Part shown: one piece after another, positions 10,482-34,800 of the stretch
Numbering within the stretch: the stretch's first letter is position 1
How the letters are laid out: every line of letters starts with the position of its first letter
From: Ceratodon purpureus
Taxonomy: Eukaryota > Streptophyta > Bryopsida > Pseudoditrichales > Ditrichaceae
Length of the DNA stretch: 64,000 bases
Reading direction: 5' to 3'
Assembly (NCBI GenBank): GCA_014871385.1
Contig: CM026433.1
Location: 11,809,326 to 11,873,325, forward strand
Notes under the pieces: model-generated
Seen by the model: only the letters and a program-made list of their open reading frames with translations
Databases searched by the model: none
Told to the model about the DNA's origin: nothing
Made by a program: the position numbers and the translations under genes

Positions 10482-10568
10482 CCAAATTGGGCTTATGAGG
10501 TGTTTTTTCAACTTTTGGCATCTACATTTCCTGTAGATGCCAAAAAACATCTCATAAGTCCAATTTGG
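10482..10568. repeat. 87-bp palindromic hairpin in left arm
   Basis: CCAAATTGG ... CCAATTTGG flank an inverted pair GGCATCTAC / GTAGATGCC around a 7-bp loop. The left half has a short insertion (CAACTTTT). Two further copies lie in the right arm at 35698-35776 and 35912-35990. Confidence 0.75.
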
Positions 10569-12918: not shown

Positions 12919-13513
12919 TCGAAAGGGATATTTAGGTAATTCTGGACAAAAAAAAGTCCATAATTCAAAAATGACCAATGCGAACTCAGCGGACCGCCGA
13001 TGGATGGAGACCACAGATGAACAGTGTCATTGTACATGAATACCACAGAATATGGAATGCAAAACTAGACATCGAGATGTGCATGGGCGGAATTTGCCAG
13101 TGATGGATATATGAACCCGAAGATTGCGACATATAATGCAGAATAAGAGTTACAATGAATACTTTAAAGAATATCATGTTGATTCAAGTAATGAAATGTA
13201 CAATACAGAGTCGGCGACCCGCCGATAATAGAACACGCTAAACTAACTAGTCCCGTAGCACTTTGAGTCCTGAAGTCCTACAACATTAAGTCTACACCCA
13301 GCACTATGTACCAAGTTCAAGTAAATCCTATCACATTATAACCTACTCTGAAAACTATTTCCCTGAAAGCATAGCCGTAAGGTCAATGAGTAAATCATAT
13401 ATTTGAAGGCCGCACAAACGGGTCGACCAAGTCGGCGGGCAGCCGATGGAAGGTGTTCTGTTGGTCAGGAGGAGGGAAGAAGTGCAAATTGGAGGCGAAA
13501 AAGTCCGCCTAAC
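12919..13513. other. core edge of element A, no gene
   Basis: Contains the inner 30 bp of the left arm and three copies of the 17-bp dyad (12985-13001 degenerate, 13210-13226, 13431-13447). It is the 3' side of the leftward FCP1-like locus C. No ORF with a recognisable domain. Confidence 0.5.
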
Positions 13514-14191
13514 TCAGTCCCAGCAAACTTCAGTCCAGTCCACTCGTGCACGTCCAAACTTTCTCGCAGCTTCAATTGCCCAGTGCACTTGCCCCGGCCT
13601 ACACGCCTGCGCCATATACTCCGGTACAGATCCGAACTTGTGCAAGGGATAAACCAGAGGAAGGATATCTGTAGCAATGTTAGGTATAACGCCGTCATCG
13701 TTCGGAAAGTTTAGATGACCCTGAAAAGGCCAAGGAATGTAGCACATACAGTTTGGTGTCCTCCTCAATGACCTCGGGTCAACATCCACAAATAGCACCT
13801 GATCTAGTTTGCAGACGTTTCTAGACTGTACCTTGGAGCAAACTTGACCTAACGTCTTATAACTCCAGGGGAAATTCTCCCGGTCGATAAGGTCACTTCT
13901 GCTATACACGAAGGACAGCCTCTCCATTACACCGGCCGGCAGAATATGTGTGAGTAAAGGCTTCAGTTCTCCCAAGGGCATCTTCGACCACAGACCAACA
14001 TGGAAATGCAAGAAAAGCATGTCGAAAAGCTTCTTCAAACCTGGGCGCTTCACTACATTCCGATGCGTATCCCATGGCAAAGCCTCTATCCTGGGATCCA
14101 CATAGCAGAGAAGGCCATTGACGCATAGGACAATACATTTCTTGACATGATGAGGTGGACCGTGAAGGCATTTGAAATAAAACGAGGAACC
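13514..14191 (-). CDS. FCP1-like phosphatase-fold protein, locus C (active site lost)
   Basis: An exon of 225 codons starts after a clear 3' splice site at 14191 (pyrimidine tract ending CTTCAG) and ends at a stop at 13514. It belongs to the FCP1/SCP-like HAD family of protein phosphatases that act on the RNA polymerase II tail. The motif that should read DxDG(T/L) here reads VLCVNGLLC (about residues 21-29 of the exon), so both catalytic aspartates are missing. Other family positions follow in order: a GLWS block matching the VFWS of its neighbours, and FVDVD matching LVDD. An upstream exon with the start codon is needed and was not identified; the intron before this exon holds a dyad (14274). 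Probably non-catalytic, possibly a decaying copy. Confidence 0.5.
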   Translation of the reverse strand, partial: GSSFYFKCLHGPPHHVKKCIVLCVNGLLCYVDPRIEALPWDTHRNVVKRPGLKKLFDMLFLHFHVGLWSKMPLGELKPLLTHILPAGVMERLSFVYSRSDLIDRENFPWSYKTLGQVCSKVQSRNVCKLDQVLFVDVDPRSLRRTPNCMCYIPWPFQGHLNFPNDDGVIPNIATDILPLVYPLHKFGSVPEYMAQACRPGQVHWAIEAARKFGRARVDWTEVCWD

Positions 14192-14500
14192 CTGAAGAAT
14201 ATGAAATGCAATCAGTGAAGGAAATCAAGGAACAGGACGAAGTATATGAAAGAAATGGACTACATTCAAAGTCGTCGGCGACCCGCCGACGAAACGATGC
14301 ATTGAAGAAACCTCAAAGGTAAATGTGCAGCAAGTGAAATGTCATGCATGCATCTACAAAAAGAACTACCGAATTGCAGCACTGGAAACAATTGTGTGGT
14401 GCAGGGAAGTTCAGAAAGGGAACAGTCTTAGCGTATTAAACTAAAGAGTGCAGAGTATCATATGTGATTTTTAAAACTAGTGGCGCCGCTGATGTAGGCT

Positions 14501-15598
14501 CTAATCAGTCGGCTGCCCGCCGATGATGGAACTACCAGGGGCCTCCGGAGGACAAGGTAAATTCACAAACCAAGATCCAGGATTACCCGGGACGTCAAAC
14601 CCACATGCATGAGAAGGAATAACCTCCCTATACTTCTGGTATTCGCGAGATTCTGGAAAAAGACGTGGCTTCCCCACGCTAGAATTCCTCCTACAATACT
14701 CCTGGACATCCAATCCAGACTGCTTAAGTCCTGCAAGGAATGGTGTAACTACCCTAGTTAAATAGGGATTGGGGGTGGGTTGAGGTTCTTTGCACTCTGC
14801 AGAGTCCCAGAAAAAAGAATTAGGATGGACAGCGCTAAATGGATGATTAAGTACATTCCTATAAGGGCGGTCGTCTACCAGTAGGGTATTCTGGACAGTG
14901 GCACCTGATCGAGCCAGTAGCCTAGTGTCGCAGAAAAGTCTATCCAGACGCTTCAACAAGTACTCCCGTTTCCCATTCGGATTAGTCCTTGTTGAGATAT
15001 CACACCAGAATCCTGGAAGGCGTCTGTAATTGCTCCTGAGCAAAGGATGAATGGCTAACAGCTTCTGGAAGTGACGATCGAGATTCTTTTCAGAAACCGT
15101 GGACCAAAAGACTACCTCGAAATTCGCCGTGCAGAACTCTAGAAATGAAAGAAGTCCTGGTCTAGCCCGGATATGAATTTTTGTCTTCTGGTCATCACCG
15201 ATATACCCGTGGTGCTCCGCGATGAGCAATCCCTTAATGTCAAGGACAAGGTAGTATCGTTGGAGAGGTACCTCAATATTACGCGCAATAATATCAGTGC
15301 TGACACTGACGGAATCATCGCGCGGGGAACCGGTGCGCGGGATCGCGACGTTGGTCTCGACGAACGAGGTGGAAGCCATCGCACACCGGCCAGAGCTATG
15401 TGCAGCAGACAGCGTCGGCGGCCCGCCGACTGGATAGTCGTACTCGTCCTTCCCATCACTTTCATTCTCGGCTTCCGCTCCCGGAGACTCTTCTCTGAGA
15501 GCATCACCATCAGGAGATGTTGGGTACTCCTCCAAGAGCATACTAAGAAGGGAAGGTCCCTGGTGCACTTTAATTTCAGCGTCATCCTCCAGTGACTC
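14501..15598 (-). CDS. FCP1-like phosphatase-fold protein, locus B
   Basis: A 365-codon exon begins after a 3' splice site at 15598 and ends at TAG (14501). An acidic N-terminal third precedes an FCP1-like HAD domain: YYLVLDIKGLL (catalytic motif), RPGLLSFLEFC, FEVVFWSTVSEKN, and NTLLVDDRPYRNV. The nucleophile Asp is kept but the second Asp, the general acid, is Lys, so activity is doubtful. Two copies of the 17-bp dyad lie in frame, at 15414 (read VGGPPT) and at the extreme C terminus (14508, read IGGQPT, then one residue and the stop). The first exon is unknown. Plant genomes contain an FCP1-like clade with an LDxNGLL motif, so a captured host gene is the likely source. Confidence 0.65.
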   Translation of the reverse strand, partial: ESLEDDAEIKVHQGPSLLSMLLEEYPTSPDGDALREESPGAEAENESDGKDEYDYPVGGPPTLSAAHSSGRCAMASTSFVETNVAIPRTGSPRDDSVSVSTDIIARNIEVPLQRYYLVLDIKGLLIAEHHGYIGDDQKTKIHIRARPGLLSFLEFCTANFEVVFWSTVSEKNLDRHFQKLLAIHPLLRSNYRRLPGFWCDISTRTNPNGKREYLLKRLDRLFCDTRLLARSGATVQNTLLVDDRPYRNVLNHPFSAVHPNSFFWDSAECKEPQPTPNPYLTRVVTPFLAGLKQSGLDVQEYCRRNSSVGKPRLFPESREYQKYREVIPSHACGFDVPGNPGSWFVNLPCPPEAPGSSIIGGQPTD

Positions 15599-15855
15599 CT
15601 GAAAAATGAAGGACAAATTCCAAGAAAATTCCGGTGATCAATCGCATGCTCACAATTCATACTTGCTCTAGTGTACAAATGGAGACACAATAAGACACCC
15701 ACGACAGAATACACAGTCTCGACACTGAGTTCCGTTCTCATATATTTAAAAGGAGGAAAACTTTATTTACTGAAAAAGTCTAAATACATGAAGATCCCAT
15801 CGGCGGGCAGCCGACTGAATCATGTGCATGCTCTCTAAAACAGTTTCTACATCTA

Positions 15856-16625
15856 CTATGTTCTCTTTCGTTTAGGGCAATCAATGTGTGGAGAGAAGAG
15901 ACTATAAGCTTCATCCCCCGGAAACAGACGACGCTGACCGAATTCGGAATGTTTCTGGCAGTACTCGGGCACGGGGAGTTTGGATTCTTTCAAACTGGTA
16001 AGCCAAGGAATCAATTCTCCAAGCAGATAATTCCTCTTACTTTCCGACTCCTTCGACTCGAAGGTATATGGTGTAGGGTGCACAGCGTTCCAAGGAGTGT
16101 TTGCGACATTCTTATAAGGGGAATCATCAACCAAGAGAGTGTTAATTGAAGACGCCCCCGTCCCCTTCAGCCCGTCATCGAGGTCAAAGAGGGTCTGGAG
16201 TCTCTTCAAATAAAACTCCCTACTAGCCTTATGTACGCAAGTCTCGCAGAAACTCTGGTCGAACTTGTAGCGCACTTCGGCATCTAAACGAGGACAGCGC
16301 TGCTGCAACGCTTTCCACAGAATCTAGAACCTCTTTTCCTGAACGCAGCTCCAGAAGACCACCTCGAAATTGTCCAGGCAGAACTCTAGGAACCTCTCTA
16401 AACCCGGTCTAAGTTTAGTACTCCACCTAGTACCCTGCTTCGTCTGGACTAATAGCAGGCCGTTAATATCCAGAACAAGAAAGTACTTCAGCACTGGATT
16501 GTGTACCTGAGTACCAGCCTGTTCCGGGGCTATGTGAAGTGGATTCAGAGGTGGAGGTCCCTGCTCCAGAACTGCACTGGGTCTATCTTCGTGAAGTTTT
16601 CCATGGACTTCCTTGTCCGCGGACT
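15856..16625 (-). pseudogene. FCP1-like locus A, interrupted by an in-frame stop
   Basis: The exon starts after a splice acceptor at 16626. The N-terminal half has FLVLDINGLLL (nucleophile Asp kept, second Asp replaced by Asn), RPGLERFLEFC and FEVVFWSCVQEK. The C-terminal half has NTLLVDDSPYKNV and RLFPG. Between them, in the same frame, is a TAG at 16321-16323 at a place where locus B reads straight through. Unless a short intron removes it, this copy cannot make a full-length protein. A dyad (16677) lies just upstream, between this locus and the 3' end of the ParB/methylase-like gene. Confidence 0.65.
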
Positions 16626-16857
16626 CTGGAGTGACAGAAAACAAAGCAGAGGACAAACGTGACGGTTAGGATGACAGTCGGCGGACAGCCGACTTGCAAG
16701 CAACATTATTTGAAAAAAGGGAAAGCGTACAACTTGGCATTTACCAAAAATTTATTCATATTTGGCAGTACAAACATCTAACACAATCCTAGAGCCCGAT
16801 CACTACACTAAATTATCAATGCAGGCATTTAAAAGATGGACTGGGCCACCGCTTGAT

Positions 16858-19800
16858 TCACTGACCTCCACCTTTGTGCTTCTTCGGCCTAGGCTCCCGT
16901 TTGGATGCCCGCGGAGGTGACAGAACGTCCTCTGGAGCGTCCACATTCCTAGGACTCATGAGCAGATCCCCAGATGTGCCCTTCTTGGAGGAAGTCTTCT
17001 TCGAAGCAGCCTTCCGTTTGCCCTTCCCAGAGGACTCCTCCCCTTCCTGAACCCCTGAGGAATCACGGGATAAGTTACCCACAAGAGAGGAATCCTGCGC
17101 AGTACCATCGGTCTTACTTCTCTTCATTGATCGTGTCTTCACCAGAGGGTTCTCATCCGGGCCAATCATCCGAGTTGCGCCCTTCACACCTTGAGTGACG
17201 AATGCGATTGACTTCCCTGTCAACTTGGTCTTGGCAGAGGGGTTAGATGAGGTTTGCTCGTCTGCCGTCGGCTGCCCGCCGACGGCAGCAGGAGGAACAT
17301 GCCCTTCAATGCTCACTGCAGGCTCCTGGGTTGTCTTCTGGACACGGAGAACCACTTCATCGGTAGGCCTCGATGCTAGAGGAACCTGCATCTTCTTTGG
17401 ACGCCCCGCCTGGTCTAAATCAGGTTCTGGCTCGGCGAGAGGAGTGTCCTGCTCTTGAAATGTAGGAGAAATAATACCGAAGCTGAGGGAGTCAGTTCCT
17501 TGCTCCCCTAGAACTTGCGACATCGGTGGGTTCACGTAACGAGGATTCGATTCTTCCAGTGGTAATTCGTCGGGTTCTGGTTCATAGTCTAATTCCTCCC
17601 TGTCTCGCTCCTCTACCTCTGCATCTCCAGTTGCAATGAAAGCCTCAGCTTGGTCGTCCTCGTTTCTTGGCTGTTCCTCACCATCTCCAGCTTCATCTTC
17701 AACGTCTGGGTCGGGTACATCTGGTGGCTCCTCGTCGACATCGTCGTCGGAGTCCTGAAAAATCTGTGAGGGAACCCCCGCAGTCTTCCCCGAACCCATA
17801 CATCCACCCTTCCCGACCAAATGGGCCTCCTCCGCATTCACACCCAAGTCGGCAGCCGTGAGAGAGCCAGTCCTGCCTCTAGCAGAGGCGGGGACAGACG
17901 GCCCGGCCCCAGACTGCGTGGTCTGAACTGGAGCTTGGACGGGCACGTTATAAACGCCCGGAATGAACGTCATATTCCGAACCCGACAGTGCGCTTCGTA
18001 TCTCTCTTCCTCGGTACGCACGATCTCAATTACAGTCAAATGGTTTTTCTGCAGCAGAACAAGACGAAACGGTTAAGGAAATCTTCTACCCAAGAAACAC
18101 GAAGGATTCAATCAGCGTCGGCTGCCAGCCGACGATCGGTGAGCAAACAGCGAAGGCACCAGAAGAGACTGCAGTAACTTACCAGAGCGAGGGCCGTGAC
18201 GTTCCCCCCTCCCCAGCAATTGATCACCCGAACGTCCTCAATCTGCATCGCTTTCTCCAGAAGAGATTGGAGGAAAGAGAAACTAGCGTGGCAGTGTCCA
18301 TTTGACCAATCCTCCCCAAGATGATCTTGTCCTTCGTCCACATAGGGAGGAAGCGGACGTTTCAAACCAGTGAAGTCCGAGAAGGTATTCCATGCATCCC
18401 CGGGCGTTGTTCTTGGATACATAACGGACACATGAACCTTGGGTCTAGAGTCAATGAGAGAACTCCTTTGAAACCCGGCGGAACTATCAGGGAAGTACTG
18501 CATAGTATGAACCGTCCACGAATTACTCGTCAGCCTTGACACGCCTTGAAGAGTGTGATTACACTCAGCATCGAGTAGCCACAAGGATGGGGTGACAAGC
18601 TTATTCACCTTAATTGTATCTACCTCCCCATCCAGAATGACCTCCTCCTCCACCTCACGGTGAATCCTCTCAGCGACAGTTATAATGTGTTGTTGTCGCA
18701 TGTTAGGCATCTCCTTTCCCGCTGGATCGTAGCCAAAGACCACGAACATCTCATACTGCGCCTTGTTGAAGGAGAATGCTCCGCGAACGTCAAGAGCTGT
18801 GCACACTTCACCCAGGTCCTCTGCAATCCGAACATCGAACTGTACAGACGACTGCGAAGACTGGTCCACATCCGACTTCCAGTACTTTTGCACAATGTCT
18901 TTGAAGAATTCTGGTGTTGGCCCTTGCGACGGCGTGAGCGGATGATTCCGTCCCTTAAGCCACTCCTTCCCCTCAGGACTATCTTCCAAGTCAGCCCGAA
19001 TATTACTAATCATTGTATCATTGAACCCCTTCTCGACTTCAAGGGAATTCCAGTCATCCATGCTCCACTCAATATGCTTCCCAGTCCCTGGTTTCTTCAG
19101 TGCAAAGCCCCTGTAAATACACATGAGCTCGTTCCGGACAATATACTCGAATTTCACACGCTTACACCAATTCTCCACTGATGTTCCATCCCGTTGAACC
19201 ACCTCTTTCCCAGTGACCTTGACGTACACTTTAAGGTCCAGAATTTCCTTGGCCAGCCTCTTGCATTCGTGGTCCCAAAGACCGATCACGTACTGCATGT
19301 CGTTGAATGTTATGTCCCGGCGGGCTGGCTTTGGGGGAAATCCTGGTTTCAGACCGTCCTCCCCGATGATCCTCCCCTCCTCCCAGGCGTCGAACACCAG
19401 TTGCCACTCGTTGTATGTTTCGTCAGACACGAAGACTAAGGGCAACTTGAAGGTTTGGGACGTAGGGGACTTTCCGAGAATCGGACTGAGGTACTCCTTG
19501 CAGAACTCCTGCAAGGAAGAAGAAAATGACATTGATAAATAAATCCCACTTCTGCAATACGGAGAACCACTTGAGCGTCGGCGGTCCGCCGACGACTTTC
19601 AACTACATGGAAACAACAGGAAAAGAGGAAGATGTGAATTACCTTCCATGCGCTGTAGTCATCTTTCTTGTCGATCCTCCCCCGCTCGATCCATTTGGCG
19701 CGCATCTTCGCCAGCTGGGACCTGAAACTTACTTCGGCGACTTTATCCTTCACCTCGATGTTTAATGCGTTAGAGACCTTAATGAGGGTATCCTTGTTAT

Positions 19801-21691
19801 CAGCGTATACAGGAATGATGTCGTGGTTAAGGTAATACTGCCGCATAGGAGAGTCCAGTGGTTCCTTCTCTCCCAGTTCTCGACAAGCCTCAAACGTGTG
19901 CTGGCCCCCAATTATGTACCAGTGGATGCCCTCATCTTCATACCAAGGTATCTGCTTAGATGTGCCGTCATCCAGTGTAAGTGAATACTTGATATTTAGG
20001 GCCATCCAAGGTCGAAGAAGTCCTTCCAAGCCTTTAAGCTTAATCTCGCCCGTCACTGGATCCTTTACTCTGGGGTCACCACTCATAGGAAGGCAGTACA
20101 GCTCGGGCTTCTTCCGGATTGCTCCAAGTCCTTTGTAGAAAAGACTTATCTGATCCTGCCTCTTCCTGAATATCGCTCTGTACTTGAATTCGTCGGGAGC
20201 TATGTGTATCCTGTTATATGGAATCTGACAAGGAAGGGCACGTTGCCCGTTGGGGAAGCAGTGCCCAAGTCCCTCCTCCAACGTCTGGTACATGGCAAGG
20301 ACGTCGGTGTCCTTTGTTTTGGAAGTGAGATTGTTTGCGAGCATGAGAGCTTCCGCCACGGTCTGCTTCTTCTCTTCCTTCTTCCCACCTTTCTTCTTCC
20401 CACCCTCGCCCTCAGCAGCCGCTGCCTTTCCCTTCTTCCTTCTCGATGACTCCCCTGTCGTCTGTGTCTCTCCGGTCTCGGGGGTGACTGTACCAGTGCC
20501 CGCTTCTACAGCAGACTTGCGGCCGCCTCTTTTCTTTGCTGCAGGCTTAACCAAGTTCTTCGTCTTCTCTTCCATCACTTTGTCCCCGAGCGTATCAATC
20601 ACGTCGAGTATCTGTTCAACAGCTATGTTCTCGCCCCTGCCCCAAGTAGCCGCATCCTGTACTTCTTTAGAGCACAAGCCGTCCATGCACTTCTCAACCG
20701 GAATTACAACCGCGAAGCAGTCCACTGGTGTGCCCTCCGCGACAGGAACCGATGCAAACACCAAGAACACGTTGTCGTTATCCTCGCATTCCCTAGCACC
20801 AATAATCTCAAATCTTGGTCCACCTGCCATTTGCTTCTGACCTATTTTGGTCACGAAGCCCAGCGACATGGGAGTGTCACGCCAGGTGATGCCCCACTCC
20901 GTTATCTTCGAATCAGCGAGGAATGTCACCCTCGGTTTCAAGCCCCGTGCGAGTATTTCTACTTCAGGATCAACAACCTTGTCACAGAGCCACCGTAACC
21001 CATTTGGTTTTGCGGTGGAGTCGACCTTTGCCCTGCAAAATTAGAATCACAAGATTAGACCATCACATTCTCACTCCATCGGCGGACAGTCGACGGGGCG
21101 GATGGACACGCCCTCCCCATCGGCGGACAGCCGACGGGGGGAATAACCCATGTGAGAAAATAGAAAAATGAAGGACTCAGAAAGGGGTGGCGTCGGCGGT
21201 CAGCCGACGGGAGGAACAACCCCATGCGCCAGAACACAAAACATGAAGGGCAAAAGAAGGGGTCACGGCGTCGGCGGACAGCCGACGGGAGGAACAACCC
21301 CATGCGCCAGAACACAAAACATGAAGGGCAAAAGAAGGGGTCACGGCGTCGGCGGACAGCCGACGGTAGGGACAAACTCATGCGAGAAAACAGAAACACG
21401 AAGGACAAAAGCAGGGGTGGCGTCGGCGGACAGCCGACTGGAGGGACAAACTCATGCGAGAAAACAGAAACACGAAGGACAAAAGCAGGGGTGGCGTCGG
21501 CGGACAGCCGACGGGAGGGACAAACCCATGCGAGAAAACGGAAACATGAAGGACAAAAGAAGGGGTGGCGTCGGCGGACAGCCGACGGGAGGGACAAACC
21601 CAGGCGAGAAATCGGAAACTTGAAGGACTCAAGAAGGGGAGCGTCGGCGGACAGCCGGTTGGACAACTTACCCACTCTCGGAGGCTGCCAT
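16858..21691 (-). CDS. ParB-like / DNA-methyltransferase-like fusion protein, four exons
   Basis: Exons run 21691-21672, 21032-19643, 19508-18183 and 18048-16858. All three introns have GT...AG ends, the phases agree, and the product is 1308 residues. ATG at 21691 is followed after 20 nt by the donor GG|GTAAGT. Residues 204-229 are Lys/Arg-rich (nuclear-signal-like). Residues about 280-457 resemble the ParB/DGQHR fold, with WYIIGGQHTFEA at 379-390. Residues about 829-840 and 898-935 match the permuted N6/N4 DNA methyltransferase layout: a degenerate catalytic motif (YPRT where [DNS]PP[YFW] is expected), then VINCWGGGNVTALAL as the SAM-binding motif I, then IEIV and ERY. ParB-methylase fusions are known in phages and bacteria. 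Catalysis is doubtful; DNA binding is the likelier role. The tail (exon 4) is charged and low-complexity. Each intron contains the 17-bp dyad, and exon 4 carries one in frame (17267). Confidence 0.6.
21078..21659. repeat. tandem array of the dyad, 73-78-bp units, inside an intron
   Basis: Nine dyads lie at 21078, 21119, 21192, 21270, 21348, 21422, 21496, 21570 and 21643. From 21192 on, the units are 78, 78, 74, 74, 74 and 73 bp long and share the spacer AACACAAAACATGAAGG or the related CAGAAACACGAAGG. Almost every dyad has the centre GGACA. The array fills intron 1 (21033-21671) of the ParB/methylase-like gene, immediately downstream of its first exon. It resembles an iteron-type binding array. 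Long frames through it on both strands arise because the repeat lacks stops. Confidence 0.85.
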
Positions 21692-22700
21692 GTCGTCGGC
21701 GGATGGCCTTTCACCGTCGGCGGATGACCTTCGAACAGCAGCCGACGCGCGCAGGTGAAGGAGCCGACGCCCTCAACCCTAGCAGCCGACGCAGAAAAAC
21801 CTAGCAGCCGACGCGACCTCTGCGGAGCGCTGAGAAGAGGACAAAAGAGAGCTGAAAAAGAGAAGGCTGGAAATGAGGAGGAAATGTCGGGAGTGGCGGG
21901 TGTATACCCTGCAGACCCCCACCTCCCGAGACTGAATCGTCACGCCCGATGGGTCATGACGTATGGCTATGTACATACCATCCATGCATGGATGGTCATC
22001 CCTAACATCCGTCCCATCACGCCACGTAGGATGATGATGGGACGTCTTTTGACTTTTTTTCAATCCGTCACCCAGTCATGATGGCCTGGGCATGTGATAT
22101 GACAGCTGCTCCAATCGCCACGTTCAAATTCGTAATAATGAACCAACATTGTTCTGTGACGGCGGGGGCATCTCGCCGCCATGATGGGATCTTGATCTGT
22201 CCAAGGCGCGCAAAATTGAATTCGATTCTGGCGCCAATTTGTACTCCTGGGAATTCATAACTAACCCCCCGTCAGATGCGCATACTTCATTCTATTTCTG
22301 TCATTGCACTTTCGATTCCCTCTGAGAGTGCTCTTGACGCACACGTTTCCTGAGAGGACCGTTATTATTCCCGCATGTGCTTAACTGTCCCGCACCTTCT
22401 GTTGCCGTTTCTGTTGTCTTCGTCTATCGTTTCTGATTGGACGGTTGAGAGGAGTCTCTGATTGGACAGGTTAGGGACATCATACTGCTTCTCAACTCAG
22501 GTCCCCTGCAATTTCTGTCGGCGGACGTGTCCGTCATCGTCGGCGGATGCTATTTCTGTGCACACTCCGAGTCGTAGGATCCGCGTCGGCTGCCCGCCGA
22601 GTCGTCTTCGTTGTCGGCGGATACATTTTACTCCGTCGGCGGGGACACTTCCCGTCGACCCTGTCGGCTGTCTGCCGACGAGGTCTTCATCTTTTATCCA
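21692..22700. promoter_or_regulatory. divergent promoter region between the two transcription units of element A
   Basis: The leftward gene starts at 21691 and the rightward gene at 22701, so this 1-kb stretch must carry both promoters. It is studded with half-sites GTCGGCGGA (about 21695, 21716, 22518, 22540, 22613), GCCGACG (about 21741-21810) and two full dyads (22585, 22663). A sharp imperfect palindrome CCATCCATGCATGGATGG lies near 21980-21996. I did not pick out convincing TATA boxes. Confidence 0.5.
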
Positions 22701-23255
22701 ATGGAAGTAGAGCCGATCCAGACGTTTCTAAGGAATGGCCGATCAGGGCGGTGGAAGGTTAAAAAGGGCGTTGTCGTGGCCCTTACTCATTCTGGGCTCT
22801 ATTATGCAGGCAGGGCAGTGATCCAACGTGTTGTAGAATTTGATCCTATAGTGGTGGTGGTAAAAGTGATTGAGGTTTCAGACAGCATGGAAATGAATAT
22901 ACCATTTCCGGATGAGGGTGCGAAGTCCTTGAGCAACTGCTTAGGACAAATGATATTGTGGGAGGCGGCCGACCTCAGGCCTTTCGGAGAGGTCGAAGAC
23001 GATGACATCAAGGCCGTCGGCTGCCCGCCGACGGATGTTGAAGAAGATGTCAAGCCCGTTCAAGAATTCCTGGACCTCGCAGAGCAGATGGAAGTTGCGC
23101 TCCTCGAGGAATCCGGAGGCTCAAAGCGTTGTGTAGCCGCTGGAGTCATTATGGAGTGCTCTCCTAAAGGAACGTGGGAGGGGTTCTTGATTCCTCACAG
23201 CTTCTTTCTAATAGTGAGAGTGTCGTCCGTCAATCCAGAATTCTCTGAAACACCT

Positions 23256-23260
23256 GCTTT
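23256..23260. repeat. GCTTT target duplication (left) of the Ty3 retrotransposon
   Basis: Perfect 5-bp duplication with 29518-29522. Five bases is normal for Ty3-type integrases. Excising the element with one copy restores the open frame of the DUF7869 gene. Confidence 0.95.
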
Positions 23261-23278
23261 TGTCACGGACATACATTA

Positions 23279-23377
23279 GAAACTTCTAGAAGATTCTTCT
23301 AGAAGTTTCTTTGAAGATTCTATAGAATATTCTTAAAAGATTCCTTCAAGATTCTATTGGAAACTTCTAGAAGATTC
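23279..23377. promoter_or_regulatory. perfect heat-shock element arrays in LTR U3
   Basis: GAA-AC-TTC-TA-GAA-GA-TTC at 23279-23296 gives four correctly phased nGAAn units. TTC-TA-GAA-GT-TTC at 23297-23309 gives three, and four more lie at 23360-23377. Three or more alternating units is the binding requirement for trimeric heat-shock factor. The same sites recur in the 3' LTR. Confidence 0.75.
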
Positions 23378-23503
23378 TTAGTATATTCTTAGTATATTCT
23401 AATAGATTCTAGGAAGCTGCTTGAGAAGCTTCTTGGTTAGTAGAAGTTGTTTGAGAAGCGTCCTAATTGGCAGAAGTAGCTCGAGAAGCTTCCTATCCAG
23501 TAG

Positions 23504-23513
23504 TATATATAAG
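23504..23513 (+). promoter_or_regulatory. TATA box of the LTR promoter
   Basis: TATATATAAG lies 32 bp upstream of the predicted transcript start at 23536, the normal plant spacing. Confidence 0.7.
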
Positions 23514-23677
23514 AGTCGAGGCTAAAGGGTTCTTCAGTCTCGACAACGCATCTCTTGGAGCTCTAGCTCACCTCTCTTGGTGTTGTTCGTATACTCATCT
23601 GATCAATCTAGTTCTTGTCTGTTTTCTCTGAACTTCTTGTTTAGATCTCTTGTCTGTATTTCCGTGTCCGTAACAGT

Positions 23678-23688
23678 TTGTCGAGACT
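23678..23688 (+). promoter_or_regulatory. primer binding site, apparently self-priming
   Basis: TTGTCGAGACT, two bases after the 5' LTR, is the exact complement of AGTCTCGACAA at 23536-23546 inside the same LTR, placed where transcription should begin. The Tf1 retrotransposon of fission yeast primes from the first 11 nt of its own mRNA in the same way. No match to a tRNA 3' end such as initiator Met (TGGTATCAGAGC) is visible. Confidence 0.7.
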
Positions 23689-23699
23689 AACTTCATCTC

Positions 23700-23930
23700 A
23701 AATATCAGAGTTGGATCCTTCTTGCTTGAGAGTGGATTACCCCTCTTCTTGAAGGTATTCTAGCGTTTTAGGGGTTGCGGATTACCCTCCTCTAAACTGA
23801 TATTTTTTTTCAATTACAATATCGGAGCTTAGTTCTTCAAGGCAGAGAGTGGACTACCCCTTTTTCTTGAAGATACTTAAGCGTTCCAAGGGTTGCGGAT
23901 TACCCTCCCTTGGCCTGGTATTAATTTCTT
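23700..23930 (+). repeat. duplicated leader segment of the retrotransposon
   Basis: Two diverged units of about 120 bp share GAGTGGA.TACCCCT, CTTGAAG.TA and GGGTTGCGGATTACCCTCC. They lie in the untranslated leader between the primer site and gag (ATG 24038). Function unknown. Confidence 0.6.
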
Positions 23931-24037
23931 CGTTCTTTAGTATTTAGTGAGATCATTTAGTATTTTCTATTCTCTTTTCTCCAAGGATTTAGTAGTTTCT
24001 TCTTCTCTCAACAATTCTATCCATCCATTTCCTTTAT

Positions 24038-25087
24038 ATGGAAGTAAATCAGGCCATGGATAGTGCATCGCCACAAATAGAGAATAGAGTGGCAACTCTT
24101 GCAGATCTTCAAGCTCTTATGAATAGTGTGCGGGAGGAGATTGCATTTCTTCGCAATCCAAGTAAAGATTCTCAAATTGATCCAGTGACTGAAGAAGCTA
24201 GACGTGAAATTCACAGCCTACAACAAGAGCTTGTTCGATTAAGAGAAACAAGACATGTATCACCTACGACCCTGATGGACAATTCAAGGACTAGTACAAA
24301 AGAACCAAAAGCAAGTATGCCAGACAAGTTTGATGCAACAAGAACCAATTTCCGAGGTTTTGTGCAACAAGTACGACTTTATCTACGCCTATATCCTTCT
24401 CGTTATCCAGATGGATTTACTCAAGTTGCGTTCATAGGTACTCTTTTATCAGGAAATGCTCGCTCTTGGTTTGCTCCGTTATTGGAAAAGGATTCTCCAA
24501 TACTGTACAACCTAGAGGCTTTTATGGAAAGATTTACCGCTGCGTTTGGAGATAGCGATCGAGAAGGAGTGGCTGAAAGAAAGATACAAAATCTGCGACA
24601 AGGATCACGTTCTGTTGCAATCTATGCGACAGAATTCCAACAACTTACTTGTGATCTTGATTGGAACGATAAGGCGTTCATGACACGATTTCGTTATGGA
24701 CTGAGAGATGATGTCAAGAACTTGTTGATCACTATGCCTAAGGTGAATACTTTAGAAGAACTTATATCTCAGGCAATTATTTGTGACAACCGCCTTTTTG
24801 AATTACGACAAGAAAAACGATCAGGCTGGAGGAATGATGGAGCATTTGCTGCATTTTCAAAAGGTCAAGAAAATCGCTCTACAGGTGCTGAACCTATGCA
24901 AATTGATGCGGTACGTTTTAAACCCCTCACAGCTGAAGAAAGGAAGCGACGGTTTGAACAAAATTTGTGCTTATATTGTGGAGAGGCGGGACATATAGCA
25001 ACAACTTGTTCGAAGAAACAGAAGCCTCAAACGACAAGACTAAGGAATACAAACATACAGGAAAACGAGGACGCCCAGCCACAATAG
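24038..25087 (+). CDS. gag: retrotransposon Gag
   Basis: A 349-residue capsid/nucleocapsid protein. The retrotransposon-gag core is in the middle (PDKFDATRTNFRGFVQQVRL, about residues 94-113, through FRYGLRDDVKNLL). A CCHC zinc knuckle CLYCGEAGHIATTC lies near residues 313-326. The ATG at 24038 is the first in this frame after the leader. The end overlaps pol, which is in the -1 frame. Confidence 0.9.
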   Translation: MEVNQAMDSASPQIENRVATLADLQALMNSVREEIAFLRNPSKDSQIDPVTEEARREIHSLQQELVRLRETRHVSPTTLMDNSRTSTKEPKASMPDKFDATRTNFRGFVQQVRLYLRLYPSRYPDGFTQVAFIGTLLSGNARSWFAPLLEKDSPILYNLEAFMERFTAAFGDSDREGVAERKIQNLRQGSRSVAIYATEFQQLTCDLDWNDKAFMTRFRYGLRDDVKNLLITMPKVNTLEELISQAIICDNRLFELRQEKRSGWRNDGAFAAFSKGQENRSTGAEPMQIDAVRFKPLTAEERKRRFEQNLCLYCGEAGHIATTCSKKQKPQTTRLRNTNIQENEDAQPQ

Positions 25088-28000
25088 GGACTGTGCGGCT
25101 GGACATCTCAACATCCAAAATTAATCCAGGTCCCTTTCTCTCAGCTCAACCTTCAGATTGTTTTATGCTACCTTTACATCTTGGTATTCAAGAACTACAA
25201 GCCGATGCTTTATTAGACTCGGGTGCATCCGCTTGCTTTATAGATGAAGAGTTTACCAAGCTTCACAATATTCCTCTTGTGAAAAAACCAAAGCCTGTCC
25301 ATGTAGAAGTCATAGACGGACGACCATTGTCTTCAGGCAATGTTATCCATGAAACCAAACCGTTGAAGGTACGTCTTGAAAACCATGAGAGCAACATTGT
25401 GTTTAATGTTATCAAGACCCCTTCATGTCCTGTCATTTTGGGACTATCTTGGCTTGCTAGATATAATCCATTAATAGATTGGAAGTTGCGGAAAGTGACA
25501 TTTCCAACAAACTCCTTGAAGGTAGAATTTGCCAAGACAATGTCTAGAAATAAACCTTTGTTTATAGGTGCAAGAGCCTTTATGAAGGAAGCCAAACACA
25601 ATACACCTCTTGTCATCTTTGCAACTCCGACTTATCAAGATGCGACTCCAACTTTTGGTATTCCGAAGAAGTATGAAGGATTCGAAGATGTCTTTGAAAA
25701 GAAGAATGCTGACATGCTGCCAGAACATCGACCCTACGACTGTGCTATAGACCTTCATGAAGGAATGCAACCACCTTTTGGACCAATCTACAACTTATCG
25801 CAAACAGAGTTGGCAGAATTGCGGAAGTACATTGACGAAAATCTAGCCAAGAATTTTATTCGTCACTCAAAGTCGCCAGCTGGAGCACCGATCTTGTTCG
25901 TGAAGAAGAAGGATGGCTCTCTGCGGATGTGCGTGGACTATCGAGGACTCAATAAGGTAACTAAGAAAAATCGTTATCCGTTACCTTTGATTTCTGGTCT
26001 TTTGGAGCAGCTTGGGCGTGCAAAGATCTTTACGAAAATTGATCTGAGGGGAGCTTACAACCTTGTACGAATCAAGGAAGGAGACGAGTGGAAGACAGCT
26101 TTCCGTACAAGGTATGGTCATTTTGAGTATAACGTCATGCCCTTTGGTCTTACCAATGCTCCGGCTGTTTTTCAACATATGATGAATGACATCTTTCGGG
26201 AGTACCTTGACGACTTTGTTGTCATCTATCTGGATGACATTCTGATATTTTCGAAGAACGAAGAAGAGCACAAGAAGCATGTTCGTTTGGTCCTTGAGAA
26301 ACTACGAGAACGAGGACTCTACGCCAAGTTGGAAAAGTGTCTATTCCACCAAACCGAGATGGAGTTTCTAGGGTTCATTGCAACTACAGATGGTTTGAAG
26401 ATGGACCCGAAGAAGGTGGAAGCAATTGTATCATGGGAGGTTCCGAAGACGATTAGAGACGTGCAATGTTTTCTTGGCTTTGCTAACTTCTATCGGATCT
26501 TCATCAAGAATTATTCTCGAATAGCTGCTCCACTCACTCGGTTGACTTGTAAGGACAAGCTTGAATGGGGACCTCAAGCAGAAAAGGCATTCCAAGATCT
26601 TAAGACGACGTTTACTATGGCTCCAATCTTGGTACACCCTGACTTTGCAAAGGCCTTCTATTTGGAGACCGATGCTTCTGATTTTGCTTTGGGAGCTGTA
26701 CTTTCACAGATGAACGTAGACGGTAAGCTCCATCCAGTTGCTTTTTATTCTCGGAAGTTCTCTGCCGCTGAAATCAACTACGAAATCTACGATAAGGAAC
26801 TCCTTGCTATAGTGGATTCTTTCCAAGAGTGGCGACACTTTCTCGAAGGCGCTGCGCATCCGGTGACCGTATATACGGATCACAAGAATTTGGAGTACTT
26901 CATGTCGGCTCGAGTCCTGAATCGACGTCAAGCTCGGTGGAATATGTCGCTGTCACGATTTGACTTTGTTATTTTCTATCGGCCTGGGAAGCAACAAGGA
27001 CTATCCGATGCATTATCGAGGAGATCATATCTCGTGCCTAAGGCTGGAGAAGCAGCGTTTGATCAACAATGCGTCACATTGTTGAAACCAGAGCATTTTA
27101 GAATTCGCGCTGCTGTCGTGCCAATTGATGCAGACTTCCTCAACCAGATACGTACTGCGACAATTGAAGATTCTGTAGCTCTTGAGATCAAGAAGCGTGC
27201 TGATAATAACAAGTTCAAGATGGAGGGAGACCTTTTGTACTTTGAAGAGCGACTATATATTCCGAAAGGACCAACACGACTTCGAGTTCTCCAATCTCGC
27301 CACGACTTTCCTGCAGCAGGTCATTTTGGATACAACAAGACATTAGAGCTTATTTCACGAGATTTTTGGTGGCCCCAAATGTGGAAAGATGTAAAAGAGT
27401 TTGTGATCTCTTGTGATATTTGTTCAAGGTCCAAAAATCCTCGGCATCGCCCCTATGGACTTCTGCAGCCATTACCTATTCCGCATCGACCATGGTCTTC
27501 AGTCTCCATGGACTTCATTACGGACCTGCCGCTTTCAAACTCGTTTGACAGCATCTTTGTTGTAGTGGATCGGCTTACAAAGATGGCGCACTTTATTCCC
27601 TGCAAGAAGACATCGTCAAGTGAAGACACAGCAAGATTCTTTCTTGATAATATATATCGTTATCATGGTTTGCCAGATGATATTATATCGGATCGAGGAA
27701 CTCAGTTTGTTTCCAAGTTCTGGAAATCTCTTTTTGAGATATTAAAGGTGGATATCAAGCTTTCTTCGGCTTTTCATCCTCAAACCGACGGTCAGACAGA
27801 ACGGGTGAATCAAGTCTTAGAGCAGTATCTACGTTGCACCATCAACTATCAGCAAGACGATTGGATCGAGTATCTACCGTTTGCCGAGTTTGCCTACAAC
27901 AACACCCTTCATGCGTCGACTCAACAAACACCGTTTTTTGCCAATTATGGATACCATCCAAAACTCGATTTGTTAAATCCAGTGGCCAATAACAACCCGG

Positions 28001-28563
28001 CAGCAGAAGGCTTTGCGAAGCAGCTATCAGAACTTCAAGCTACGTTGAGATTTCAATTACAATCTGCTCAAGAATCTTACAAAGCGGCCGCAGATAAATT
28101 TCGGAATAAGGCACCTATTTTCAAGATTGGAGCTAAAGTATGGCTTCTTCGACGGAATATTCAGACTAAACGACCGTGTGATAAATTGGACTACCGCAGA
28201 TTAGGACCATTTGTTGTCCAGAAGCAAATCAATCCCGTGGCTTACCGTCTGGAATTACCAGCCGCTATGAAGGTACATCCAGTCTTTCATGTTTCTTTAT
28301 TGGAGCCTTATCGAGAATCGTCTTTTCCTGGAAGAGTGCAAAATCCGCCACCTAGCATTGAAATTGAGAACCACGAGGAATACGAGGTCGAAAAGGTGCT
28401 AGATTCACGACGAAGGTGGGGCAAGTTGGAGTATCTTGTTCATTGGTACGGCTATGATATTAATGAGCGAACGTGGGAGCCAGCCGAAAATCTTGCTAAT
28501 GCGCCGCAAAAGGTACAGGAATTTCATCAACAATATCCTGATAAACCGAAGCCATCTCGATGA
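24958..28563 (+). CDS. pol: retrotransposon Pol (PR-RT-RH-IN-chromodomain)
   Basis: Open in the -1 frame relative to gag from 24958 (a stop lies at 24955) to 28563. In order: protease with LLDSGASACFID; reverse transcriptase with YLDDILIFSKN; RNase H with ETDASDFALGA; integrase with an HHCC finger (HDFPAAGHFGYNK ... CDICSRSK) and a DDE core (MDFITDLP, ISDRGTQF, TERVNQVLEQ); and a chromodomain near the end (YLVHWYGYDINERTWEP). No internal stop. There is no ATG near the start, so translation presumably follows a -1 shift from gag; AAATTTG at 24961-24967 has the X-XXY-YYZ form in the gag frame. Confidence 0.93.
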   Translation, partial: TKFVLILWRGGTYSNNLFEETEASNDKTKEYKHTGKRGRPATIGTVRLDISTSKINPGPFLSAQPSDCFMLPLHLGIQELQADALLDSGASACFIDEEFTKLHNIPLVKKPKPVHVEVIDGRPLSSGNVIHETKPLKVRLENHESNIVFNVIKTPSCPVILGLSWLARYNPLIDWKLRKVTFPTNSLKVEFAKTMSRNKPLFIGARAFMKEAKHNTPLVIFATPTYQDATPTFGIPKKYEGFEDVFEKKNADMLPEHRPYDCAIDLHEGMQPPFGPIYNLSQTELAELRKYIDENLAKNFIRHSKSPAGAPILFVKKKDGSLRMCVDYRGLNKVTKKNRYPLPLISGLLEQLGRAKIFTKIDLRGAYNLVRIKEGDEWKTAFRTRYGHFEYNVMPFGLTNAPAVFQHMMNDIFREYLDDFVVIYLDDILIFSKNEEEHKKHVRLVLEKLRERGLYAKLEKCLFHQTEMEFLGFIATTDGLKMDPKKVEAIVSWEVPKTIRDVQCFLGFANFYRIFIKNYSRIAAPLTRLTCKDKLEWGPQAEKAFQDLKTTFTMAPILVHPDFAKAFYLETDASDFALGAVLSQMNVDGKLHPVAFYSRKFSAAEINYEIYDKELLAIVDSFQEWRHFLEGAAHPVTVYTDHKNLEYFMSARVLNRRQARWNMSLSRFDFVIFYRPGKQQGLSDALSRRSYLVPKAGEAAFDQQCVTLLKPEHFRIRAAVVPIDADFLNQIRTATIEDSVALEIKKRADNNKFKMEGDLLYFEERLYIPKGPTRLRVLQSRHDFPAAGHFGYNKTLELISRDFWWPQMWKDVKEFVISCDICSRSKNPRHRPYGLLQPLPIPHRPWSSVSMDFITDLPLSNSFDSIFVVVDRLTKMAHFIPCKKTSSSEDTARFFLDNIYRYHGLPDDIISDRGTQFVSKFWKSLFEILKVDIKLSSAFHPQTDGQTERVNQVLEQYLRCTINYQQDDWIEYLPFAEFAYNNTLHASTQQTPFFANYGYHPKLDLLNPVANNNPAAEGFAKQLSELQATLRFQLQSAQESYKAAADKFRNKAPIFKIGAKVWLLRRNIQTKRPCDKLDYRRLGPFVVQKQINPVAYRLELPAAMKVHPVFHVSLLEPYRESSFPGRVQNPPPSIEIENHEEYEVEKVLDSRRRWGKLEYLVHWYGYDINERTWEPAENLANAPQKVQEFHQQYPDKPKPSR

Positions 28564-28698
28564 TAGCTTATTTCTCAAGTTTCTCCAGACATTAGTATAA
28601 AAGGAGGGGAGAACGCTACCAAAACTCATAGTTGATGTTATTATTTTCTGTAAGCTAGAGTAGAGTTTATCCGAGTAGTCATAGTTTGGTCTACAGTC

Positions 28699-29052
28699 AT
28701 GGATAGTCAAGAGTTAGATACTATGCCAGTCATGTCATCTCAACCAACGAATTCACGTAGGCGATCCCGAGATGAAGAACCGCCTGTACCACAACGACGA
28801 CGGAGGATACCAAGCAACCGATCGCTGGTGATTGTATTCGAGGTGGAGCCTGCTTTCAATGGTCTACCAGAAGGAGTGTTTGCTGGACAATTTCACAATG
28901 AAGACACGGAAGTTCATGCTTGGTCAGAAGTGGAAGGCGTAGGCCACTACCGTTGGCTTCAAGGACCAATGAACCACCTACCTCGTGAACAACAATTGGA
29001 CTTCATTGCAGACGTGATGCGACAAATCTTCATTTTTCTACGATGGTATTGA
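28699..29052 (+). CDS. extra 3' ORF of the retrotransposon, unknown function
   Basis: 117 codons, ATG to TGA, between pol and the polypurine tract. The N-terminal third is Arg-rich (RRRSRDEE ... QRRRRIPSNR), followed by a compact region ending IFIFLRWY. No signal peptide or internal membrane segment, so it is not an envelope-type protein by appearance. The basic stretch could be a nuclear or nucleic-acid-binding signal. Not a family I recognise. Confidence 0.55.
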   Translation: MDSQELDTMPVMSSQPTNSRRRSRDEEPPVPQRRRRIPSNRSLVIVFEVEPAFNGLPEGVFAGQFHNEDTEVHAWSEVEGVGHYRWLQGPMNHLPREQQLDFIADVMRQIFIFLRWY

Positions 29053-29089
29053 CCGGCAGCAAAACTGCTTCTCGGAGACCTCGAAGCTA

Positions 29090-29102
29090 GAAGGGGAGGT
29101 GA
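29090..29102 (+). promoter_or_regulatory. polypurine tract
   Basis: GAAGGGGAGGTGA directly precedes the 3' LTR, the expected place for the plus-strand primer. Confidence 0.8.
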
Positions 29103-29517
29103 TGTCACGGACATACATTAGAAACTTCTAGAAGATTCTTCTAGAAGTTTCTTTGAAGATTCTATAGAATATTCTTAAAAGATTCCTTCAAGATTCTATT
29201 GGAAACTTCTAGAAGATTCTTAGTATATTCTTAGTATATTCTAATAGATTCTAGGAAGCTGCTTGAGAAGCTTCTTGGTTAGTAGAAGTTGTTTGAGAAG
29301 CGTCCTAATTGGCAGAAGTAGCTCGAGAAGCTTCCTATCCAGTAGTATATATAAGAGTCGAGGCTAAAGGGTTCTTCAGTCTCGACAACGCATCTCTTGG
29401 AGCTCTAGCTCACCTCTCTTGGTGTTGTTCGTATACTCATCTGATCAATCTAGTTCTTGTCTGTTTTCTCTGAACTTCTTGTTTAGATCTCTTGTCTGTA
29501 TTTCCGTGTCCGTAACA
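29103..29517 (+). repeat. 3' LTR
   Basis: 415 bp; by eye identical to the 5' LTR, which implies very recent insertion. Confidence 0.95.
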
Positions 29518-32500
29518 GCTTTCTGCGAGTTACCGGATGTGTTAACGATCGGGTGTGCTGTGGGGCGATTGGTACTTTGGAGTGGATACAAGGTCTGTCC
29601 ACTTGTGAATGGCGCGTTGGCTGGCACATGTCCCGTCGGCTGCCCGCCGACGGAGCCTCACTTGGGGAACGAAGATGAAGAAATTGATGAAAGCAACTCC
29701 GCTCCGTCTGAGCAGGATCTGGGGACTAGGTCTCCTATGAATATCAGCAGTGACGACGATGTGTCTAAACAAGGGGAATCCGACGTAGAAACAGATGATC
29801 ATTGTTGGGGTCCGGATTCCGCGACCTCGGGTACTCCTTCCACTCCAGATGCTTCTTATCCTGACCGCCACCTCTGGAGAAATCGGTATGTCGAACTTCT
29901 TAATGATGATCTATCAGTCCGTGGTAGAGCAATGATTCAAGTATGTTTACCGGACGAGGCATGTGATGATGAAGTCCTCGGGGATACAGAGGTTGGGGTT
30001 CTCTTCGTCTCTGAAGACGATCATCTGCAGATGACAACTCTCAGATGGCGTCTGACTCACACTCGGTTAGAAGGGGGTCACCTTCTCTCTGATATAATTA
30101 CTTACTGCTCCGAGAATTTAGCAGACGCCGACGCGGACGATGGTCTGGATGGTGTCCCGAAGAATGCCTATCGATCGGTGCGGAGGAAAGTCTGCGAAAA
30201 AGATGACGTCTCTTCCACTAAGCTTCGTCGAATGGTTGTCCCTGCTGAGTGCCGCTTAGTGAGCTCAAAGCGCTGTTGCAAGGACCGATGTTGCCAGACT
30301 TTTAGATGAAAAGATACTATGAGTATTCGGCGTAAATTTTACGCAACAACATTCCAGGCGAGGCGAGAGATGTCCTTCGCTGTGCAAGGGCACTTACATA
30401 CTGTACCCGGCAAGCGGAAGCTCTATGTTACTCTTGCGAACGTTGACGTATGTGAAGTGGCGTGGTATATCATTCACAGAGTATCGAAATCCGCGTACTA
30501 CAGCTACAAGGCTGCGGCCCGAAGTGGTCGTGTCAGTGGGAGTCACGGAAATTCCGGTGTACATCGTCCCCAGATTCACACAATCCAGGCCCGCGCGACG
30601 TTGACCACTATCGTTAATGAGAATGCCGACCAAATGCCCAATGAGTTTCGGATGATTGGCAAGAAGAGAGTGGCCGCGCACAAAGTACTCCCGTCTGCGA
30701 TGAACTGGAATCACATGCGCGAAATGGCCAACGCCGTAAGTTCCTCCTCATCTTCTTTCACTTTGGATAGTTTACTGAATTGTAGTGATTACTATCGTCG
30801 GCTGCCCGCCGACTGGATGACGAACTTCCCAACTGATCGACCTCACTCTGTGCTATTCAGGTCAATGAGCAGTGCAACGCGAAGCTGATTTCGCAGTCCT
30901 CCGTTAGTCGCATGAGGAAGGAGTACTTCCGCAACGTTGAGGTCAAGGCCGTAGGAAGTAATTTCTCCAAGTGCACTGAGTGTGACTTCCTCGTTGAACT
31001 CATTGCCAAGTATCCTAGAGGGTCGGACGAGTGGCAGAGCTTGACAGAGGATAGGACCAGGCATTTGAACTATCAGCGAGCTTGTCGCAACATTTATTAC
31101 GGATGGACAACCCAATCTATACAGAGTCCTACTGAGTTCCTATGCATCATACATGATAAGATGGACACATCGAAAACAGCGATCCCCCGCATGCAACGTA
31201 TCACGAAGGCTACGGCAGGGCTTGGTCAAATTCCGATTTCCTGTACTAGAATGCTGACTCACGGTCACGAAGATGGCGCCTACGCACACTATGCAACTGC
31301 CCTGTGGCCAGGAGACCCAAATTTCACAATCTCCTCGTTGTGCAGGGTATTCCGTGCCTTGGAGAGACTACCTGTCCGGGAGTCAAAAGCACTCTTCGAG
31401 GCACCGCCACAGAATGAATTCTTTGCAGCGCTAATGCATGGATCGTCACGTTGCATCCCCTCAATTCCACCTTCTAGAGATGAGCCACTCACTCCACCTC
31501 TGCCTGGTAGGCCTGCTGTTCCTTTGCCGAAGAAGTTGTATCTCCAGCTTGACAATTCTGCGAAGGACAACAAGAACCGGTTTCTTCTAGCATTCTGCTC
31601 GTTGCTGACGGCGAGGCGAATATTCAAGGAAGTTACAGTTGGTTTCCTGATTGTGGGACACACACATGAGGACATCGACGCCCACTTCAGTCACCTATCG
31701 AAACTCATTAAGCGAAAGAACACATACTGCCTTGCAGACCTTATGAAGGCATTCATGGATTCTCAGAAGACAGTTGCCTTTATTCCAGAGGTTGTTCAGG
31801 AAGTGGCAGACTTCAAAAGTTATGTTGCTGATTTTCATCACGACGGAGGTAATGCGATAGAAGGTCACAGTGAAATGCATCTTTTTAAGTTCTATGTGGT
31901 GGAGGATGGGGAGGATGCGGGGTGGCCCGTAATGAGGTACAAGAAGCGTGCAACTGATCCGTCATGGCTTCCACCTGGCAAACCCGTGAAAATGTGGAGG
32001 GCAGACAAAGAGGGTAAACCACGTTTGCCCGTCGGTGATCCCAAACCGGTTCCTCATAAGCACTTATGGGGTAGTGTTGAAGTCGATGAGGGCAAGAAGA
32101 ACGCGGATAAAGAGGTGGCAAGGGCAGCGGAGTGTTCAGAGAAGAGAAATTTCATTAAAAGTGGATTATCTAAGTACATTGAGTACTGGAGAACTGGCAT
32201 GGCTCGGGATAAGAAATACGCACAAGACATGTTACCATATGTACTGTATTGGGAACGAATTTTAAAGGAGGTCAACGAGCCACTGCCCCCCAATTCCGCC
32301 ACCTTACAGGAAGGATTCTGGCCTATCTCAGACTGGAAGCGGGACCACGTCACCACATTCGATGCACAGGACGAATATATACCGGATCCGGATATTTGTC
32401 CCGGTGACGAGGATGAGGTGGAGCCCTATCCTTTCTGTGGTCCGAAAAACTCTAGGCCGAAGTCTGTGTTTAACCCATATCGTGACGTTTTACGTGGCGA

Positions 32501-32889
32501 TTGGGTTTTCTGTCGTCCGTGTAAGGAAGACCACCTACCCATTTGGATGGGTAGGGCGATAGAGCCTGTTATAACAGAGCCTGGTCCTAATTACGGTAAG
32601 TTCAAGGTTGAATGGTGGACTCCGATGAAGGGCAAGAAGGAAGGTAAGAAGAAGGTTGCGAGAGAGTGCTGGACAAGACGGTGGGAAAGGGAGTTGACTC
32701 TTGCGGAGTGGGTGGAGTGTAAATCCGTTGTATACACTCATAGGACCAAGAAAACTACGCATGAGGGACCCTCAAAGTCCCATCTAATACCCAAAGATGT
32801 TGTGATTGCTGCCATGGCAAACTTCGAATCGCATGGAATCTCGATGAACTGGAATGACGAGGAGGAAGACTAGTCGGCTGCCCGCCGAC

Positions 32890-34510: not shown

Positions 34511-34800
34511 TCATCATCTTTATATGTATTTCAGATTCCAGAGGTCGGTTCAGTGAGGAAGAGGTTGGCTCTCCTAGTCGGCGGCCAGCAGACTACAAAG
34601 GACTTCCATTCGTTGTGACCGTGAATACTGTTCATTCTAAACGACGACTCCGGAGTCCTCACAGACGGACACCCCAATGTGAGATGCCTGGCAGTCGTGT
34701 CCACTCAGCGGGTCGCCGACGATCTTCCCTTCACCCGCTTCACTTCACAGATCCACATTTTGCAGAGCAAGTATTTCCTTTTATTAGAACAGATAGATTT

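Follow-up and report, generated by a model that had tools for sequence, protein, structure and literature searches.

The transposon and its four-exon gene

A 64,000-nucleotide stretch of Ceratodon purpureus contig CM026433.1, referred to here as the window (C13:11809326-11873325), contains a DNA transposon of 22,179 bp that measures approximately 15.9 kb without a nested retrotransposon. The element carries two neighboring, divergent genes, one encoding a protein of 1308 residues and the other, on the plus strand, a protein in which Pfam finds DUF7869 (PF25273, E 4.1e-42) and which is likely the transposase of the element. Distributed among these genes are copies of a 17-bp palindrome, GTCGGC-NGNCN-GCCGAC, hereafter the dyad. 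We present evidence that the dyad is constrained across copies of the element and consider, tentatively, that the 1308-residue protein binds it.

The first-pass annotation of this DNA had described the gene as transposon-borne, and the inverted ends, 4-bp target duplications and copy number of the element confirm this. The stretches 12919-12951 and 35073-35105 are inverted copies of each other identical at 30 of 33 positions, the four duplication bases included, with a local score of 51 as against a maximum of 31 in 200 shuffles. Comparison with other copies sets the ends of the element at 12923 and 35101, and its terminal inverted repeats (TIRs) are imperfect. The target duplication is TCGA in the window, ATAA in a copy on C1 and CTTT in a copy on C8; both ends were visible in two of the four further copies inspected, the left end of the other two lying outside the fetched stretch. 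The element thus combines inverted ends, a target duplication, many copies and a transposase-like gene, as DNA transposons do.

Joining of four minus-strand exons (21691-16858) yields an open frame of 1308 residues, and all three introns of the window copy have GT..AG borders. The donor of exon 3 is matched by the read-through tails of two relatives in other records, P0003 and P0021, in which NVTALAL is followed by VS. A search of the genome for copies (362,488,568 bases in 151 contigs) returned at least 95 matches to exon 3 at 91-100% identity (95 scored of 426 candidates), and 79 of the 95 have no internal stop. We examined 21 gene copies, consisting of the window and 20 gene regions fetched from the at least 94 further copies. 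The full four-exon frame is kept in 13 of them, which, with the frame open across the joins, upholds the four-exon model of the earlier annotation. The eight defective copies comprise three with stops only (L053, L054, L060), one with stops and a lost intron 2 acceptor (L070), two with a shifted frame (L068, L069) and two in which the start region could not be aligned (L059, L066). The length of intron 1 differs between copies.

Substitution rates, motifs and dyad conservation were counted in 18 of the 21 sequences, L059, L066 and L068 being left out. The ratio of nonsynonymous to synonymous substitution rates (dN/dS), pooled over 153 pairs of these 18 copies, is 0.72 for the whole protein. 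By region it is 0.70 in the N-terminal domain, 0.52 in the ParB-like region, 0.40 in the middle and 0.51 in residues 690-945, and it exceeds 1 in the linker (1.85) and the tail (1.42). Purifying selection on the protein core is a trend rather than a test, because the pairs are non-independent and five of the 18 copies carry a stop or frameshift.

The palindrome and its constraint

A 19-nucleotide form of the dyad has 27 matches in the window at up to three mismatches, where 100 shuffles averaged 0.07. These 27 all fall between 13430 and 34594, inside the element, and none lies in the nested retrotransposon at 23261-29518. Nine occur in intron 1, most of which is spanned by a 74-bp tandem array (21120-21657), and introns 2 and 3 hold one each. 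The claim of the first-pass annotation that every intron contains the dyad is therefore correct, though the sites are not exclusive to introns: others are intergenic or lie within open reading frames (ORFs; 17266, 15413, 14507, 23015 and 29634), and the idea that dyads are strictly tied to introns was dropped. The five ORF dyads share one reading frame, V/I-G-x-x-P-T, and the dyad at 32872 overlaps a stop codon.

The form of the dyad is fixed to a high degree. Across the 20 fetched gene regions and the window element, whose sites are largely copies by descent, the spacer is 5 bp in 166 of 166 GTCGGC...GCCGAC pairs, with no pair at any other spacing from 0 to 11. Spacer positions 2 and 4 are G and C in 163 of the 166 sites, and positions 1 and 5 are unable to pair in 141. 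The genome contains 810 occurrences of one dyad variant and none of the backward pattern; 92 of the first 100 genomic sites listed have a listed exon-3 copy no more than 12 kb away. With 6-bp half-sites that are inverted, lie one helical turn (11 bp) apart and enclose a symmetric G and C amid free positions, the dyad resembles duplex DNA to which a dimer would bind. Because the outermost spacer positions mostly fail to pair, no longer hairpin stem is being maintained, although the dyads may still form a 6-bp stem with a 5-nucleotide loop.

Comparison of introns 2 and 3 in 17 copies with the window shows that the palindrome sequence is constrained. Only 2 of 476 cells at fixed dyad positions have changed, as opposed to 107 of 3978 cells elsewhere in these introns, and the free spacer positions of the same dyads have changed faster than the remaining intron (19 of 102 cells). 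When the mask of fixed positions was slid along the introns, 48 of 6561 masks were equally invariant, some of which overlap the dyad. Introns 2 and 3 each retain an exact dyad core in 17 of the 18 copies, intron 1 retains at least one in 17 of the 18, and exon 4 retains it in all 18; exons 2 and 3 of the 18 copies contain none.

Relatives of the protein in other records

A query with the trimmed protein recovered 18 relatives and one with exon 3 recovered four, with one relative common to both. The whole-protein query found none among 7998 candidates, perhaps owing to low-complexity words filling the list, and searches of viral_contigs and genome_contigs yielded no related locus. Identity to exon 2 is 45-54% in 16 proteins, the near-identical P0004 standing apart; identity to exon 3 is 30% in P0023, 37% in P0021, 68% in a third relative and 95% in P0003.

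Some relatives represent exons read through into the adjoining intron, and the intron sequence can in part be inferred from these tails by back-translation. Among 12 such tails the dyad can be encoded without mismatch in three, P0003 and P0023 for intron 3 and P0004 for intron 2 (0 of 500 shuffles each), and with one mismatch in P0021 for intron 3 (4 of 500) and P0022 for intron 2 (7 of 500). The remaining seven tails, each of 10-30 residues, would need at least three mismatches. In a control pool of coding sequence, which itself includes the coding dyad, the dyad was encodable without mismatch in 1 of 400 windows of 24 residues to 10 of 400 windows of 68 residues, and with at most one mismatch in 3 of 400 (29 residues) and 13 of 400 (60 residues). 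Since P0021 and P0023 share only 37% and 30% exon-3 identity with the window protein, the intron-borne dyads look old.

Domain content of the protein

The first-pass annotation read the protein as a fusion of a ParB-like core and a DNA methylase, and only the former retains some support. The GGQH box (residues 382-385) is conserved in most relatives, with RGQH in P0009 and GGEH in P0020. In a single comparison, a profile of 18 exon-2 sequences aligned with eight phage ParB domains precisely at the GxH/R box, with an E of 0.0092, and one of 150 column-shuffled profiles did as well. A phage ParB hidden Markov model (HMM) scored -3.9 bits on the single protein, away from the GGQH box; no Pfam, NCBIfam, PHROG or PDB sequence match named ParB; and the AlphaFold model over this region has a block-mean predicted local distance difference test score (pLDDT) of 28-65. 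Taken together, the alignment on the box points weakly to a ParB-like core. A PH-like fold, which would comprise seven strands and a C-terminal helix, is likewise weakly suggested for residues 22-170. A fold search with the exon-2 model gave no match at E of 0.001 or below (the best being 0.15 in PDB, to the FACT complex, and 0.014 in BFVD), and ParB was not among the VIA-align matches listed for this model, whose ParB-like part was modelled at low confidence. Sequence searches of PDB returned nothing useful.

The methylase-like part gained no support from comparison. No HMM or Pfam match to a methylase was obtained, and profile comparisons of the region with eight phage methylases did no better than chance (64 and 75 of 150 shuffled profiles scoring as well), although the top alignment does pair WGGGN with FGGSG. 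The methylase profile excluded L007, a split gene, the methylase-region profiles excluded P0022, and A2 excluded P0003. A model of exon 3 built without an alignment was useless (pLDDT 33.1). YPRT is present at residues 834-837, but the alignment has no anchor by which this stretch could be identified as the lost catalytic motif, and that identification was abandoned. By eye, VVFGYDP (726-732) could equally be the place of motif IV, a reading that is itself unproven. Because the methyltransferase comparison is at chance, it gives no ground for judging catalytic loss.

Proposed function and alternatives

The arrangement of the dyads recalls that of a known plant system. In Arabidopsis (PMC5735166), VANC21, a protein of the VANDAL elements, accumulates through a short motif in the introns and in the intergenic and terminal noncoding DNA of its own element, and its targets amplify as tandem repeats, including in the introns of VANC21 and VANB21. 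The element described here likewise has an accessory gene and a short motif in its own noncoding DNA and introns, tandemly amplified; it differs in that its motif is a 17-bp palindrome in place of YAGTATTAY, and in that its likely transposase has DUF7869. Judged by Pfam scans, the protein has no VANC-type or other Pfam domain. By analogy in manner of working, and not in family membership, we tentatively favor, at somewhat less than even confidence, a reading in which the 1308-residue protein serves its DNA transposon of approximately 16 kb as an accessory factor with sequence-specific DNA binding. It would bind the palindrome, probably as a dimer, at sites in introns, intergenic stretches and near the gene ends of its own element, and by coating the element through many sites it would counter host silencing and keep the genes of the element expressed. 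We infer that the likeliest binder is this protein, with its conserved core, that it would bind as a dimer, and that its effect would be on silencing and not on transposition alone. The role of reader suggested by the first-pass annotation is plausible.

Several observations weigh against this proposal. The pooled dN/dS of 0.72 is only modestly below 1, curated-library scans recognized no DNA-binding domain in the protein, the ParB-like box is missed by the single-sequence HMM, and the transposase could be the dyad binder instead. VANC sites are not known to occur in coding sequence, and some dyads here are coding. The ratio of observed to expected CpG is alike in the element (0.85 and 0.87), the nested retrotransposon (0.84) and a long interspersed element (0.90). 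Transitions affect 101 of 7596 CpG positions in exons compared with 201 of 29321 other C/G positions, 4 of 576 compared with 26 of 1638 in introns 2 and 3, and 11 of 1836 compared with 33 of 4948 upstream; the few noncoding events hint at most at protected CpGs. CpG content does not point clearly to hypomethylation.

Other explanations account for parts of the evidence. TnpA of Spm/En is reported to bind repeated short motifs of its own element, and a role modelled on it, in which the protein or the transposase binds dyads for end-finding, synapsis or transposase recruitment with no effect on silencing, is rather unlikely. The dyads and related palindromes extend to both terminal regions (13209-13430 and 34244-34594), and the gene adjoins the likely transposase gene; the sites are, however, scattered, with concentrations in intron 1 and elsewhere in the interior, away from the ends, and the TIRs contain none. 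Compared by description with TnpA, which is also element-encoded and has repeated motifs, the present sites lie mainly in the interior of the element and in introns, and less in subterminal DNA. The complementary arms, the presence of a dyad in each intron and its kept position in introns 2 and 3 across copies would also suit an action in RNA, as intron hairpins or splicing signals rather than protein sites on duplex DNA. We regard this as improbable: dyads are also found between genes and in ORFs, their symmetric spacer G and C are retained, and spacer positions 1 and 5 mostly cannot pair, though these could lie in a loop. A passive origin, with repeats spread and homogenized by gene conversion and replication slippage, might explain the variable length of intron 1 and the rapid change at the free spacer positions, as exchange between dyads would produce, but it is very unlikely: the fixed positions hardly vary between copies at corresponding sites in the introns, a degree of invariance matched by few slid masks, and relatives with 30-37% exon-3 identity seem to carry an intron dyad as well.

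Two further possibilities concern the proposed domains. That the protein is a DNA methyltransferase guided by the ParB-like domain, either still active or only recently inactivated, and so a writer or a reader derived from one, is most unlikely: the motif order seen by eye, the WGGGNVT common to P0003 and P0021 (WGGGNIT in P0023) and the pairing of this stretch with FGGSG in the top alignment speak for it, and the shuffle controls and the lack of an HMM or Pfam match speak against it. The protein resembles phage and bacterial ParB-methylase fusions (L001-L005) in the alignment of the GxH/R box and in the proposed order of parts; it differs in having no family-level sequence match, large additional N-terminal and middle regions and a methylase part that could not be demonstrated. 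The palindromic sites resemble parS, and it is conceivable, albeit at long odds, that the protein loads as a ParB-type clamp at dispersed palindromes and spreads, which would mark the element as self and protect it against silencing. Clamp reading of this kind would represent centromere-like self-labelling in a plant mobile element, with loading sites in introns. If the protein does read the dyads, the VANC strategy would have evolved twice in plants, in another type of transposon and with an apparently unrelated protein, and a ParB-like domain might enter eukaryotic transposon biology. The at least 95 closely similar copies, mostly with an open exon 3, and the fixed spacing of the 17-bp palindrome make the idea directly testable.

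Other features of the element

Table 1. Coordinates in the window of the transposon, its genes and its repeats.
Feature	Positions	Strand	Remarks
Target-site duplication TCGA, left	12919-12922	.	same letters at 35102-35105
Left TIR	12923-12951	+	
NIF/FCP-phosphatase-like modules	13514-16665	-	Pfam: 13514-14224, 14501-15637; by eye: 15859-16665
Exon 4	16858-18048	-	includes stop codon; one coding dyad, 17266-17284
Intron 3	18049-18182	-	dyad 18116-18134
Exon 3	18183-19508	-	
Intron 2	19509-19642	-	dyad 19576-19594
Exon 2	19643-21032	-	N-terminal domain (PH-like fold suggested), linker, putative ParB-like GGQH box
Intron 1	21033-21671	-	contains 74-bp tandem array of dyads
Exon 1	21672-21691	-	20 nucleotides
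Probable 5' part of DUF7869 transposase-like gene	22578-23260	+	ORF 22578-23279; dyad at 23015
Nested Ty3-type long terminal repeat (LTR) retrotransposon	23261-29518	+	dyad-free; identical 416-bp LTRs; target-site duplication GCTTT
Remainder of transposase-like gene	29519-32873	+	DUF7869 in ORF 30837-32873; dyads 29634, 30796, 32872
Three 100-bp direct repeats	34223-34522	+	each with a related shorter palindrome
Right TIR	35073-35101	-	
Target-site duplication TCGA, right	35102-35105	.	

The stretch at 22578-23260 would join the 3' part of the transposase-like gene across the nested retrotransposon. Because this Ty3-type element lies within what is probably the 5' portion of the transposase gene, the window copy is probably no longer autonomous. 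The retrotransposon carries a chromodomain, and its identical LTRs indicate a young insertion into the transposon. A TGA at 30307-30309 splits one frame of the transposase-like region (29368-30309 and 30310-30888) and is either a stop that is spliced out or a sign of decay of the window copy. A limited literature search found no paper on DUF7869, one brown-alga paper on ParB with KDZ, and nothing else judged relevant, and we do not claim that these subjects are absent from print.

The phosphatase-like modules stand in tandem and read LDINGLL, LDIKGLL and LCVNGLL where DxDxT is expected in NIF/FCP-type phosphatases, and judging from these residues the modules may be inactive. A telomere-like run of TAGGGTTT-type repeats occupies 34808-34862 in the right part of the transposon. 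Outside the element, a near-identical hairpin with TTTTGGCATCTACA arms occurs to the left at 10513-10545 and to the right at 35720-35754 and 35934-35968, and probably belongs to another repeat family.

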